Source: Marivita sp. S6314 (GTDB lineage: Bacteria; Pseudomonadota; Alphaproteobacteria; Rhodobacterales; Rhodobacteraceae). Taken from it: DNA of 64,000 bases. This document shows, piece after piece, positions 18,686 through 21,994 of this stretch. The notes beneath the pieces were generated by a model that saw nothing but the letters and a program-made list of their open reading frames with translations, made no database searches and was not told the DNA's origin. Made by a program: the position numbers and the translations under genes. The stretch lies in assembly GCF_023015985.1 (NCBI RefSeq), contig NZ_JALKAO010000004.1, forward strand, positions 124,001-188,000. Direction: 5' to 3'. Numbering within the stretch: the stretch's first letter is position 1; each line of letters begins with the position of its first letter.

Positions 18686-18716
18686 AAAAAAGAGCATCCG
18701 CGCGGGATGCTCTTTT
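18686..18716 (-). terminator. Rho-independent terminator of the puc operon
   Basis: A 12-bp stem (AAAAGAGCATCC and its complement, loop GCGCG) is followed on the minus strand by six T residues. It lies 18 bp beyond the stop of the repeat-protein gene. It separates the puc operon from pyrE. Confidence 0.9.
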
Positions 18717-18734
18717 CAGCGGCCGGGTATGGAC

Positions 18735-19784
18735 CTAGCGGCGCTTGATTGTCTCAAGCCCCAGCATTTTCGAGAAGGAAAAGCCCTTGGCGTCGGAGCC
18801 CGTCTTTGTGCCCGCATGTCGGATCGTGAGCGGTAAGAGCATGTCCGCCATGCGCCCGTGACGCGAGATGATCGAGCCGGTGAAGGGCTTGCGACGGCTG
18901 ATCAGGCTGATCGGGAAATTCGCCATGCGCATGTGGCGCGGGAAGGCGGATTTGTCGAACGGTTTGCGATCGCTGAGCAGCGGGATCGGAAAGTTCGCCA
19001 TGCGGGGGCCGCCGGGGATCAGCGCGTTTGTGTGTTCTTCGCCATCAATCAGATGCGGGAAGGGCCAGTTGGCCATGCGCATATGCCGGGGAAAGGCGAA
19101 TTTGTCGTAGGGCTTACGACGGCTGATCAGCGGAAGCGGGAAATTCGCCATGCGCGCGTGACGCGGGATGATTGAGCCGGTGAACGGCTTGCGCCGGCTG
19201 ATGAGCGGGATTGGAAACGCCGCCATGCGCGCGTGGCGCGGGAAGATCGACGCGGTGTTCGGTTTGCGGCGGCTGATCAGCGGGATCGGGAAATTGGCCA
19301 TCCGGCCATGCCGTGGAATGGCGCTTTCATTGTAGGGTTTGCGACGGCTGATCAGGGGGATGGGCCAGTCTGCCATATGGTGCCGGTCGCCTTTCTTGCC
19401 GGGCGGACGGCTTAGCATGTAGGGATGTTCGGTCAGGACTTTCAGGCTGCGTTTGCGGGTGTCCTTGAAAAAGACGGTTTCGTTTAGGCCGCCCATGTCC
19501 ACCGCGCCCATCCGCGTGGCGGTTTCGCGGGTGATCTTGGCCACCCCCAGCGGTTTGTACCCCGCGCGGACAAGCAGCACCGAACCGCCTTTTTTCATGT
19601 TGTCGGCGTAGGCTTTCGCCGTGTCTTCGGCAACATGTTCGGCCATCAGCGTCGCGGTCAGGCCGTCTGCCTTGGTGTAGGTGCTGACAATGGCCGGAGA
19701 AAATCGCTGGCCGTAGACAAGCTCGGACTTGACCGCCTCTGCTTGGCCTGCGTCTTCAAAGTACCGTGTGATTATCGTTGTCAT
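18735..19784 (-). CDS. puc-operon repeat protein: alpha/beta domain plus seven 25-residue repeats
   Basis: A 349-residue protein of unknown function, the last gene of the puc operon; its ATG overlaps the pucC stop by four bases. Residues 1 to about 115 look like a small alpha/beta domain (MTTIITRYFEDAGQAEAVKS, then GGSVLLVRAGYKPLGVAKIT), faintly like YflT/GSP17M stress domains. Residues 136-310 are seven tandem 25-residue repeats with consensus RMANFPIPLISRRKPF followed by variable residues and IPRH; an eighth begins at 311. Six of the seven keep the His at position 24, and six keep Arg-Lys-Pro at positions 13-15; unit 5 lacks both. There is no signal or membrane helix. It is probably an accessory for LH2 assembly or stability, which is inference. 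Confidence 0.85.
   Translation of the reverse strand: MTTIITRYFEDAGQAEAVKSELVYGQRFSPAIVSTYTKADGLTATLMAEHVAEDTAKAYADNMKKGGSVLLVRAGYKPLGVAKITRETATRMGAVDMGGLNETVFFKDTRKRSLKVLTEHPYMLSRPPGKKGDRHHMADWPIPLISRRKPYNESAIPRHGRMANFPIPLISRRKPNTASIFPRHARMAAFPIPLISRRKPFTGSIIPRHARMANFPLPLISRRKPYDKFAFPRHMRMANWPFPHLIDGEEHTNALIPGGPRMANFPIPLLSDRKPFDKSAFPRHMRMANFPISLISRRKPFTGSIISRHGRMADMLLPLTIRHAGTKTGSDAKGFSFSKMLGLETIKRR
18825..19379 (-). repeat. Seven and a half tandem 75-bp coding repeats
   Basis: The DNA encoding the 25-residue units repeats in phase every 75 bp, with recurring cores such as TTGCGACGGCTGATCAG and GGGAAATTCGCCATGCGC on the plus strand. The fifth unit (residues 236-260, PFPHLIDGEEHTNALIPGGP) is the most divergent. 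The array could expand or contract by recombination. Confidence 0.88.
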
Positions 19785-21220
19785 GGTGCCTCCACCGGGT
19801 TGGATTGCGAAGATGCCGCGACGTGAGCGGCACGGGACGTGCCCCGCCGCGCCGCCAGCGGGATGGCGATGAGGACAGCCAGAACAAGAAAGACGGTGTC
19901 CAGTGAGAATACTGCTAGATAGGGCGTTTCGACCGAGCGCCCAGCGTCAGAGGGCAGAGCGACAATGATGTCCCGGATCCAACCGGCCAGCGCCATACCA
20001 ATACCGGCAGCCGTGGCCTGAACGCTGCCCCACGCCCCAAGCGCGAGCCCGACCTTGTCTTCGGGCGCGGCGCGCATGGTGGCCGTCAGTGTGGCATGGC
20101 CAAACAGCCCTGCACCGATGCCGATCAGAAGCGTTCCCGCAAGAAACGCCGCCGTGCCGCCGCCATAGGCGGAGAAGATGATGGATACAAATCCGGGAAT
20201 GCCGATCAAAGCCCCGTTCAACGTGGTCGAGGACGGTCGACCACCCTGGCTTAACACGCGGGAGGCCACGCCAAATCCGATCAATGTGCCCCCGGCCAGA
20301 AGGGCAGTGAGTTTCGTCGTGCTGGCCACCGACAGCCCGAGCGCTTCGCCGCCGTAGGGTTCGAGCAGAACATCCGCCATGCCGAACCCGAATGTTCCCA
20401 GTGCGATCACAACAAGCAGTCGAAGCATTCCGGCGTTTTGCATCAGATCCTGCCAGGCGGACCGGAATGATACCGGGGCGGCCACAGCCATCGCCTGCGC
20501 ACGCACCCGGTCGCGGGCTTCTTGCTTCCACATGGCTGTGAAATTCAGCACCACGGTGACGACAGCCGTGCCTTGTATCACCTGGATCAGACGGCCGGGG
20601 CTGTAGGTTTCAAGCAGGACACCATAAAGCATTGCGCTGATCACCATGCCGAAGAGAAGCATCACATACATCAGCCCAACCACCTTGGGTTGGTCGTCTT
20701 CGTCCACCAGATCTGTGGCAAGGGCGAGCCCTACGGTTTGCACCATATGGATGCCAGCCCCCACCAGCAGAAACGCCAGGGCGGCAGAACTGTAGCCGAC
20801 CCAGCGGGGGGTATCGAAGGATTCGCCATAGCCAGACAGCACCAATAGGGCGAACGGCATGACGGCAAACCCGCCGAACTGGTACAGCGTACCTTTCCAG
20901 ATATAGGGAAGCCGACGCAGACCCAGTGCCGATTTGTGCATGTCGGATTTGAACCCGATCAGCGCGCGGAATGGGGCAAACACGATGGGCAACGCCAGCA
21001 TCGTGCCCACAAGGCTGGCGGGAACGGATAATTCAACGATCATCACGCGGTTCAGCGTGCCCACCATCAGCACAAGCGCCATGCCGACGGTCACCTGAAA
21101 CAGAGCCAGACGCAGCAGGCGGGACAGCGGCACGTCTTTGGTCGCCACATCTGCAAAGGGCAGGTAACGCGGACCAAGTGTCGCGAGACGGTGTAGTACG
21201 ATGCGACGGTAATCGAGCAT
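19781..21220 (-). CDS. pucC: PucC, LH2 antenna assembly factor (BCD/MFS family)
   Basis: A 479-residue, 12-helix membrane protein of the PucC/LhaA/bacteriochlorophyll-delivery family, needed for LH2 assembly or accumulation. Characteristic segments are LNRVMIVELSVPASLVGTML near helix 1, PFRALIGFKSDMH and LRRLPYIWKGTLYQFGGFA. The ATG is chosen because AGGTGG lies five bases upstream; a GTG three codons earlier is possible. It follows pucBA and is translationally coupled to the repeat-protein gene. Confidence 0.94.
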   Translation of the reverse strand: MLDYRRIVLHRLATLGPRYLPFADVATKDVPLSRLLRLALFQVTVGMALVLMVGTLNRVMIVELSVPASLVGTMLALPIVFAPFRALIGFKSDMHKSALGLRRLPYIWKGTLYQFGGFAVMPFALLVLSGYGESFDTPRWVGYSSAALAFLLVGAGIHMVQTVGLALATDLVDEDDQPKVVGLMYVMLLFGMVISAMLYGVLLETYSPGRLIQVIQGTAVVTVVLNFTAMWKQEARDRVRAQAMAVAAPVSFRSAWQDLMQNAGMLRLLVVIALGTFGFGMADVLLEPYGGEALGLSVASTTKLTALLAGGTLIGFGVASRVLSQGGRPSSTTLNGALIGIPGFVSIIFSAYGGGTAAFLAGTLLIGIGAGLFGHATLTATMRAAPEDKVGLALGAWGSVQATAAGIGMALAGWIRDIIVALPSDAGRSVETPYLAVFSLDTVFLVLAVLIAIPLAARRGTSRAAHVAASSQSNPVEAP

Positions 21221-21250
21221 GCGGACCACCTGACTTGAACGCCCTGACGC

Positions 21251-21331: not shown

Positions 21332-21652
21332 TTACAACTCTGGCTGGAGTTGCGGCGCTTGAATCAGCGCGGTCGTCGACGTTCCGTCCGGGAGGATCAG
21401 GGTCACTTCCAGGCTGCCGTCCGACTGTGGGACAACATAGCTGGCTTTTGCGGTATTCGCTTCGGGAGCGATCATCGCGGCGGCCGCCACATCACCCGAG
21501 CCCAGTTCCTGACCTGACAAGAAGTCAGCGACCCAGGATGTGTTGCTCAGAACGGCGACGTGTACAGCGAAAGATCCAACGGCAACCGCGCCCAAAAAGA
21601 CCGGTACACCGACTGCGGGTGGCACAACGAGCCACATTTTTGCATTATTCAT
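21332..21652 (-). CDS. pucA: LH2 light-harvesting alpha chain with long C-terminal tail
   Basis: A 106-residue antenna polypeptide. Residues 1-46 match LH2 alpha chains: MNNAKMWLVV start, one membrane helix, the bacteriochlorophyll ligand His31 (FAVHVAVLSNTSW) and Trp40. Positions 44-45 are Phe-Leu instead of the Tyr-Trp of B800-850 complexes, matching known B800-820 alpha chains. About 55 residues follow that most LH2 alpha chains lack, beginning SGQELGSGDVAAAAMIAPEA and ending in a Val/Thr-rich stretch. The tail would lie on the periplasmic side. pucB is 12 bp upstream. Confidence 0.92.
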   Translation of the reverse strand: MNNAKMWLVVPPAVGVPVFLGAVAVGSFAVHVAVLSNTSWVADFLSGQELGSGDVAAAAMIAPEANTAKASYVVPQSDGSLEVTLILPDGTSTTALIQAPQLQPEL

Positions 21653-21664
21653 TCTGTGTCCCCC

Positions 21665-21823
21665 TTAGCCCAGCCACGGCGTGGCAGCGGCAACAAGGAA
21701 ATGCGCCAGCAGTGCAATCGCACCGAACACGCGTGTCCCGTCGATCAGGTAGCTGTGGACTTCTTCAGCTTCCTTCAACGTCAGGCCTGTCGGCCAGACT
21801 TTGTCTTCATCGTCTGTAGACAT
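21665..21823 (-). CDS. pucB: LH2 light-harvesting beta chain
   Basis: A 52-residue single-helix antenna polypeptide. His41 ([15 protein letters not shown]) is the axial ligand of the strongly coupled bacteriochlorophyll. His23 and Arg31 lie 18 and 10 residues before it, as do the B800-site residues in known beta chains. An excellent ribosome site (GGAGG) precedes the ATG, as expected for a highly expressed antenna gene. It is the first gene of the puc operon. Confidence 0.95.
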
Positions 21824-21950: not shown

Positions 21951-21968
21951 TGTCATATAATTCTGACA
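21951..21968 (-). promoter_or_regulatory. PpsR/CrtJ-type operator 1, overlapping the puc -10
   Basis: The sequence TGTCA-N8-TGACA is a perfect TGT-N12-ACA palindrome, the binding pattern of PpsR/CrtJ repressors of photosynthesis genes. On the puc strand it contains the likely -10 (TTATAT or TATATG). Confidence 0.85.
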
Positions 21969-21976
21969 TAATCAAT

Positions 21977-21994
21977 TGTCAGGCTGAGTTTACA
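21977..21994 (-). promoter_or_regulatory. PpsR/CrtJ-type operator 2, overlapping the puc -35
   Basis: A second TGT-N12-ACA site lies exactly 8 bp from the first. On the puc strand it ends in CTGACA, the likely -35, 16-17 bp from the -10. Two sites 8 bp apart is the arrangement to which CrtJ binds cooperatively at bchC in Rhodobacter capsulatus. Confidence 0.75.

Follow-up and report, generated by a model that had tools for sequence, protein, structure and literature searches.

The window, a stretch of 64,000 nucleotides from the 3.77 Mb genome of Marivita sp. S6314, contains a puc operon for the LH2 antenna on the reverse strand; from a reading of the translations, the operon appears to lie between pyrE and pyrC. 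The gene pucB (21665..21823, with ATG at 21823-21821; PF00556 and sequence) encodes an LH2 beta chain of 52 residues, and pucA (21332..21652; PF00556) encodes an LH2 alpha chain of 106 residues that carries Phe44/Leu45 and a C-terminal extension. These are followed by pucC (19781..21229; PF03209, 483.5 bits), an ORF of 482 residues with a GTG start, and by the last gene of the operon (18735..19784), which starts with ATG and encodes a protein of 349 residues. The latter gene is supported by its ORF, its homologues and the constraint on its sequence, and the stop of pucC overlaps its start as ATGA in the ORF reading. The named proteins nearest to the 349-residue protein come from Marivita, with 70% identity in M. 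hallyeonensis.

The window PucB is called LH2 because pucC adjoins it and LH2 beta chains are its top matches in the PDB. It also passes the cut-off of the NCBIfam LH1-beta model (63.3 vs 61 bits), and automatic naming may label it as LH1. Two TGT-N12-ACA boxes (21951-21968 and 21977-21994; 21951..21994, no strand assigned), which we take to be PpsR-type, are situated upstream of pucB. The motif is not enriched in the window (11 matches vs 8.5 expected), and hence the place of the boxes alone is suggestive. At the other end of the operon, RNA folding revealed a hairpin with a T-run 3' of the 349-residue gene on the same strand (18687..18717; -22.7 kcal/mol, z -4.2 in a 55 nt fold), missed by a simple scan, which is a probable terminator of the puc operon.

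Head domain and repeat tail

Residues 1-110 (19455..19784) give pLDDT values of 67-91 per 10-residue block in AlphaFold2, with a small alpha/beta strand-helix pattern, and this head of about 110 residues is predicted to fold as a small alpha/beta domain. By eye, the protein appears to possess neither a signal peptide nor a membrane helix. It gives no Pfam or NCBIfam match at E<=1, PF11181 (YflT) included, and a sequence search of the PDB with it provided no convincing relative (best E 0.57). PF11181 weakly matches relatives, 2/15 in one set and 5/27 in another, with best E of 0.0034 and 0.0029, respectively, and in this profile comparison the head looks distantly YflT-like. The head is joined to the tail by a linker (residues 111-136; 19377..19454) with the motif LTEHPYML, which often reads SVLxDHPxF in the alignments of relatives.

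The tail comprises eight 25-residue units, of which seven are full (residues 137-311; 18852..19376) and the eighth (18777..18851) is shortened, being unit-like in its first half alone (MADMLLPLTIR), and then ends in a C-terminal FSKMLGLETIKRR motif. In the alignments this motif, FSFSKMLGLETIKRR (18738..18782), resembles the C-terminus of many short forms of the family, which have LGxPTxxRR in common. Tandem Repeats Finder detects the array with period 75 (score 242) and period 150 (score 326). The preliminary description had placed a gene for a 25-residue tandem-repeat protein at the end of the puc operon, overlapping pucC by ATGA, and the ORF and Tandem Repeats Finder results confirm this, with the correction that eight repeats are counted instead of seven. 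The repeats are real, but "near-identical", as they were called, is too strong. The full units other than unit 5 are on average 60-80% alike in their residues within one protein, and 63-81% alike as DNA among the six such units of the window gene. Unit 5 (MANWPFPHLIDGEEHTNALIPGGPR; 19002-19076) deviates strongly from the remaining units, with about 34% identity.

The number of units is exactly eight in 21/21 complete proteins of the 25-residue type, the window protein included and eight of them from its genus. The spacing is 25 residues throughout these proteins except for a single step of 26 in one of them. This set consists of proteins of 340-355 residues, L060 being left out as of the 15-residue type; the selection by length hid no complete 25-residue type with another count, since the proteins of other lengths are of the 15-residue or mixed type, cut by contig ends, or short forms. 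Unit 5 is odd in 21/21 proteins, and yet it is the best conserved unit between species, with a mean identity of 0.78 vs 0.68-0.70 for the other full units. Of the 147 units of the 21 proteins, 110 have Arg at position 22, 124 have His at position 23, 130 have Arg at position 25, and 119 have Ser at position 10, in agreement with the Arg-His ending described before. The tail is also basic, as had been stated, with 39 Lys and Arg vs 11 Asp and Glu in 213 residues, and it contains many Trp, Phe and Pro residues.

In six relatives (L010, L011, L012, L013, L014 and L060), some or most of the array consists of 15-residue units (VPGHKFMAKFPFGHI). In L011, L012, L014 and L060, 12 or 13 units are found by pattern with two 25-residue steps kept, and one further unit probably lies inside a gap of 30, giving 12-14. 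The likeness of the repeat number to the number of subunit pairs in an LH2 ring, noted earlier as a possible coincidence, may or may not have meaning: the number is fixed at eight in the 25-residue type and lies at 12-14 in the mostly 15-residue relatives, at nearly equal total length. Five proteins of the mostly 15-residue or mixed kind are complete and have 334-365 residues, L013 being cut by its contig, and total length seems to be conserved more than unit length. The swap of 25-residue for 15-residue units within the long clade has apparently occurred more than once, in the Marivita group and in others, and L010 is a mosaic.

A roughly constant tail length with varying unit length, together with the positive charge and the many Trp, Phe and Pro residues, would be expected of a membrane organiser, in which the positively charged tail, lying at the membrane interface, would bind anionic lipids and order or bend the membrane surrounding LH2, with no fixed place on the ring. 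The constant eight units and the odd unit 5 of the 25-residue type call for a defined partner instead, and we consider such an organiser quite unlikely. AlphaFold2 predicts almost no structure for residues 111-349 (pLDDT <50), which would suit an extended ribbon and also fits a plain disordered tail.

Comparison with four relatives gives pN of 0.14-0.26 and pS of 0.52-0.68 for the repeat region, and pN of 0.26-0.37 for the head. The corresponding pN/pS ratios are 0.28, 0.27, 0.29 and 0.50 for the repeats vs 0.39, 0.47, 0.46 and 0.59 for the head. The region behaves as coding sequence, and the repeats are under stronger constraint than the head. This bears on the proposal of a regulator or stress protein, in which the YflT-like head senses a state and the tail just anchors it to LH2. 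YflT is a heat-induced stress protein domain, and the weak PF11181 matches of relatives speak for this proposal; the greater constraint on the repeats and the lack of a YflT match in the window protein speak against it and make it improbable.

The short forms, of about 195-230 residues, appear on visual inspection to contain two or three loose units, e.g. MSRMFWPMPLLSRK. In the head tree, in which 60/65 rows were used (L092, L093, two pieces of L083, and L056 were left out), the long forms are one clade with a support of 100/97. In the PucC tree long and short forms are intermixed, and at least 5 changes are forced for the character "long" (16/55 rows), with G326, which has both forms, scored as long. 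In G326 a long and a short member stand in tandem behind pucC. We read these trees as suggesting that the long and short forms are old paralogues, followed by repeated loss or exchange.

Linkage to the LH2 genes

Family matches are present in 23 of 195 relatives, the own genome included. In a family-wide sample of Rhodobacteraceae (394 genomes, nearly one per genus), a search with profile A1 matched 49 genomes. The window PucC matches 169/394 genomes of this sample. PucC was called in 55 genomes among the matches listed, 54 at >=56% identity and G217 with a fragment at 73%; the further matches listed are paralogues near 50-55% identity, presumably of the LhaA type. The family gene and pucC occur together in 47 of the 55 pucC genomes among the matches listed (Fisher p 6e-50, uncorrected for ancestry). 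By coordinates, the member follows pucC in the same orientation in 46/49 genomes, with 0-235 bases between the matched parts, and the linkage rises to 48/49 with G038, where pucC is split at a contig end, and G387, where it is fragmented. The 49th genome (G074) encodes a protein that lacks repeats and matches YflT faintly (E 0.075). A match in G030 (E 4.7e-4, four stops, repeat part alone) was taken as chance.

In a class-wide sample 7/385 genomes match, the window genome among them. Two of these belong to other alphaproteobacterial families and have short members on the opposite strand to pucBA: a 189-residue member divergent from pucBAC in G509 (L170) and a 183-residue member convergent with pucBA in G512 (L171). 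The tie to the LH2 genes is thus found in three gene orders. Two further matches (G758 and G731) were rejected, being YflT/YsnF-like by eye and without such repeats; the remaining ones are G553 (E 2.8e-4) and G744 (E 4.4e-4). The linkage to puc genes, which the preliminary description proposed to check, is borne out by 48/49 matching genomes of 394, and homologues widespread in non-phototrophs without puc genes, which would have spoken against it, did not appear in the genomes searched, 394 from the family and 385 from the class.

The linkage has its exceptions. tblastn located pucC at 34/37 loci, several of which are the same gene, and not at L014, L023 and L035. The last of these is Roseobacter sp. 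WL0113, in which the sole family copy found is on a different contig from pucC and, from a reading of its surroundings, near pyrB/pyrC-like genes. Second copies distant from pucC are present in G017, G276 and G468. A search of a plasmid collection with the 349-residue protein gave no match. In G217 (L083) and G387 (L093) both pucC and the family gene are fragmented, as if lost jointly, with assembly errors or, in G387, unknown bases as another possible cause.

Eight of the 55 pucC genomes among the matches listed have no profile A1 match, and among the ORFs in the 2.6 kb behind their pucC the five longest look unrelated. The family gene is thus dispensable for some LH2. In the PucC tree, seven of the eight fall into a single clade, which indicates few events of loss or absence rather than eight, and the co-occurrence with pucC partly reflects shared descent. 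Co-occurrence alone proves little, because the operon may have been passed on, by descent or by transfer, in one piece. A neutral gene that merely travels with the puc operon would accord with such transfer or descent and with the placing of most pucC genomes lacking the gene in one clade. We nevertheless regard such a passenger as scarcely credible, since pN is well below pS, the unit number is fixed, and the linkage is found in three gene orders.

The position directly behind pucC, at 0-235 bases in 46 genomes, points to another function, that of an assembly factor with PucC, which would bind new PucA/PucB or PucC, guide ring closure and depart, the repeats being docking sites for the apoproteins. 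LH2 assembly falls strongly when PucC is lost (PMC4949548), and a helper of this kind would also agree with the joint fragmentation in G217 and G387 and with the eight of 55 pucC genomes, among the matches listed, that lack the gene. A transient helper needs no fixed unit number, however, and the gene also adjoins pucBA where it is not behind pucC. We regard the assembly factor as possible, though only tentatively.

The alpha chains alongside the family have features of their own. Phe44/Leu45 is present in the alpha chains adjoining pucC in 42/46 positive genomes (27/31 with short and 15/15 with long forms) and in 0/7 negative genomes; in the eighth negative genome (G343) the alpha chain was not found. 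This is the residue pair of the B800-820 LH3 complex (1ijd), where it replaces a hydrogen-bonding aromatic pair, and introduction of the pair in Rba. sphaeroides yields a B800-826 complex (PMC8775250). From the Phe44/Leu45 of the window PucA, a B850 band shifted to the blue (B800-820 type) is predicted for its LH2. Cells of Dinoroseobacter shibae absorb at 804 and 868 nm (PMC10890935). The alpha chains have 98-123 residues in 44/46 positives, the exceptions being G298 (66) and G451 (51), and 52-73 residues in the 7 negatives. The C-terminal extension of the Marivita-group alpha chains reads AKASY...DGxxEVTVILPDGTxxxALIQP; an AlphaFold2 model of the extended PucA was poor and was discarded (mean pLDDT 46.2). 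These traits go along with LH2 lineages, so that common descent rather than function may explain why they are shared.

A possible ribbon at the LH2 ring

The 349-residue protein is probably a ribbon acting on or around the LH2 ring; as to its more specific form, we hold with about even confidence that it is an accessory ribbon resembling gamma, placed at the cytoplasmic face of LH2. The accessory ribbon is favoured because the fixed unit number, the constant odd unit, the roughly kept length and the constraint on the repeats require a partner whose size is definite, and the companions of the gene are those of LH2. In the proposed arrangement the head (residues 1-110) would fold independently, and the 213-residue cationic tail, rich in Pro and aromatic residues, would extend along the rim of the LH2 ring on its cytoplasmic side, with its units placed one by one on successive alpha/beta pairs. 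The tail may make contact with lipid head groups and with the acidic N-termini of PucB; the PucB of the window begins with MSTDDEDK. Such a ribbon would stabilise or complete the ring. It may also hold extra bacteriochlorophylls, like the gamma subunit of Rps. palustris, although pigment binding by the tail is no more than a possibility. We infer the membrane side and the placing of one unit per pair, and binding to LH2 is suggested by gene linkage. Against the ribbon, the 12-14 units of the 15-residue arrays mismatch a nine-membered ring, the short forms have two or three units, and the family gene is absent from one LH2 clade.

In a more elaborate form, the protein would be an independent second LH2 ribbon, in which the eight units and a ninth-like C-terminal one encircle the ring, one per pair, each holding an extra bacteriochlorophyll via its conserved Ser or His, so as to count the ring and add a second 800-nm belt to an LH2 with a blue-shifted B850 band. 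We consider this form unlikely.

LH2 is a textbook antenna, and 47 of the 55 pucC genomes among the matches listed hold a partner gene for a protein family of which no description was found in a search of open-licence PMC papers. Should the protein prove to sit on the ring, it would be a third LH2 subunit in many aerobic phototrophs, and pigment binding by it would mean that additional 800-nm belts had evolved more than once. The control of LH2 ring size, to our knowledge an open question, becomes testable with a partner of fixed unit number, by altering that number.

Comparison with known systems

The PF11181 YflT domain shares with the head of some family members a weak profile likeness and a small alpha/beta pattern, but has no repeat tail like that of the 349-residue protein. 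A closer parallel in gene order is provided by the R. capsulatus operon pucBACDE, in which PucD and PucE are encoded behind pucC and are part of LH2, PucE being a 14-kDa LH2 gamma. The family gene, too, lies behind pucC, and this likeness to PucE is one of position. The short forms of about 195-230 residues may or may not be relatives of PucD/PucE. Searches with R. capsulatus sequences identified no R. capsulatus, as LH1-beta gave at best 84% identity among 30 of the 55 genomes with pucC, and LH2-beta at best 77% in both 6 and 244 genomes. The puc operon of D. shibae is Dshi_2897-Dshi_2900, co-regulated with the photosynthesis gene cluster (PMC10890935). These are four consecutive locus tags, one beyond pucBAC, and from their count the extra one may be a family member.

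The closest analogue is LH2-gamma of Rps. palustris (PDB 7zcu, 7zdi, 7ze3 and 7ze8), an extended polypeptide with six repeats that follows the ring close to its cytoplasmic side and whose serines ligate six additional bacteriochlorophylls, 27.6 Å apart (PMC9618040). The same paper reports LH2-gamma from Rhodopseudomonas alone. The earlier statement that no known LH2 protein looks like the 349-residue one does not stand beside this LH2-bound tandem-repeat ribbon, to which no homology was found. The protein data bank search at E<=10 with the 349-residue protein or with a relative of 15-residue units did not return 7zcu_S, hhalign against the gamma gave probabilities of 0.4% and 0.2%, and 403/5000 shuffles were equally good in a comparison of the unit profile with it. 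A GxPLLxK likeness noticed by eye was rejected as a sign of homology, as it failed the profile and shuffle tests.

The gamma has 97 residues and 16-residue units, counted from the printed alignment, in contrast to the 25- or 15-residue units of the family, and it lacks a head, whereas the 349-residue protein has a predicted head of about 110 residues before the repeats. Because of this head and the lack of sequence homology, the 349-residue protein may work like a gamma and is not called one. Both have short tandem repeats, with an extended form of the 349-residue tail suggested by the model, and LH2 is the partner of the gamma and, from gene linkage, the putative partner of the 349-residue protein. 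One Ser ligand per repeat is present in the gamma, and Ser10 and His23 would be the candidates in the family units. The preliminary description put forward a role as scaffold or as binder of pigment at the cytoplasmic face, and this would fit the closest analogue.
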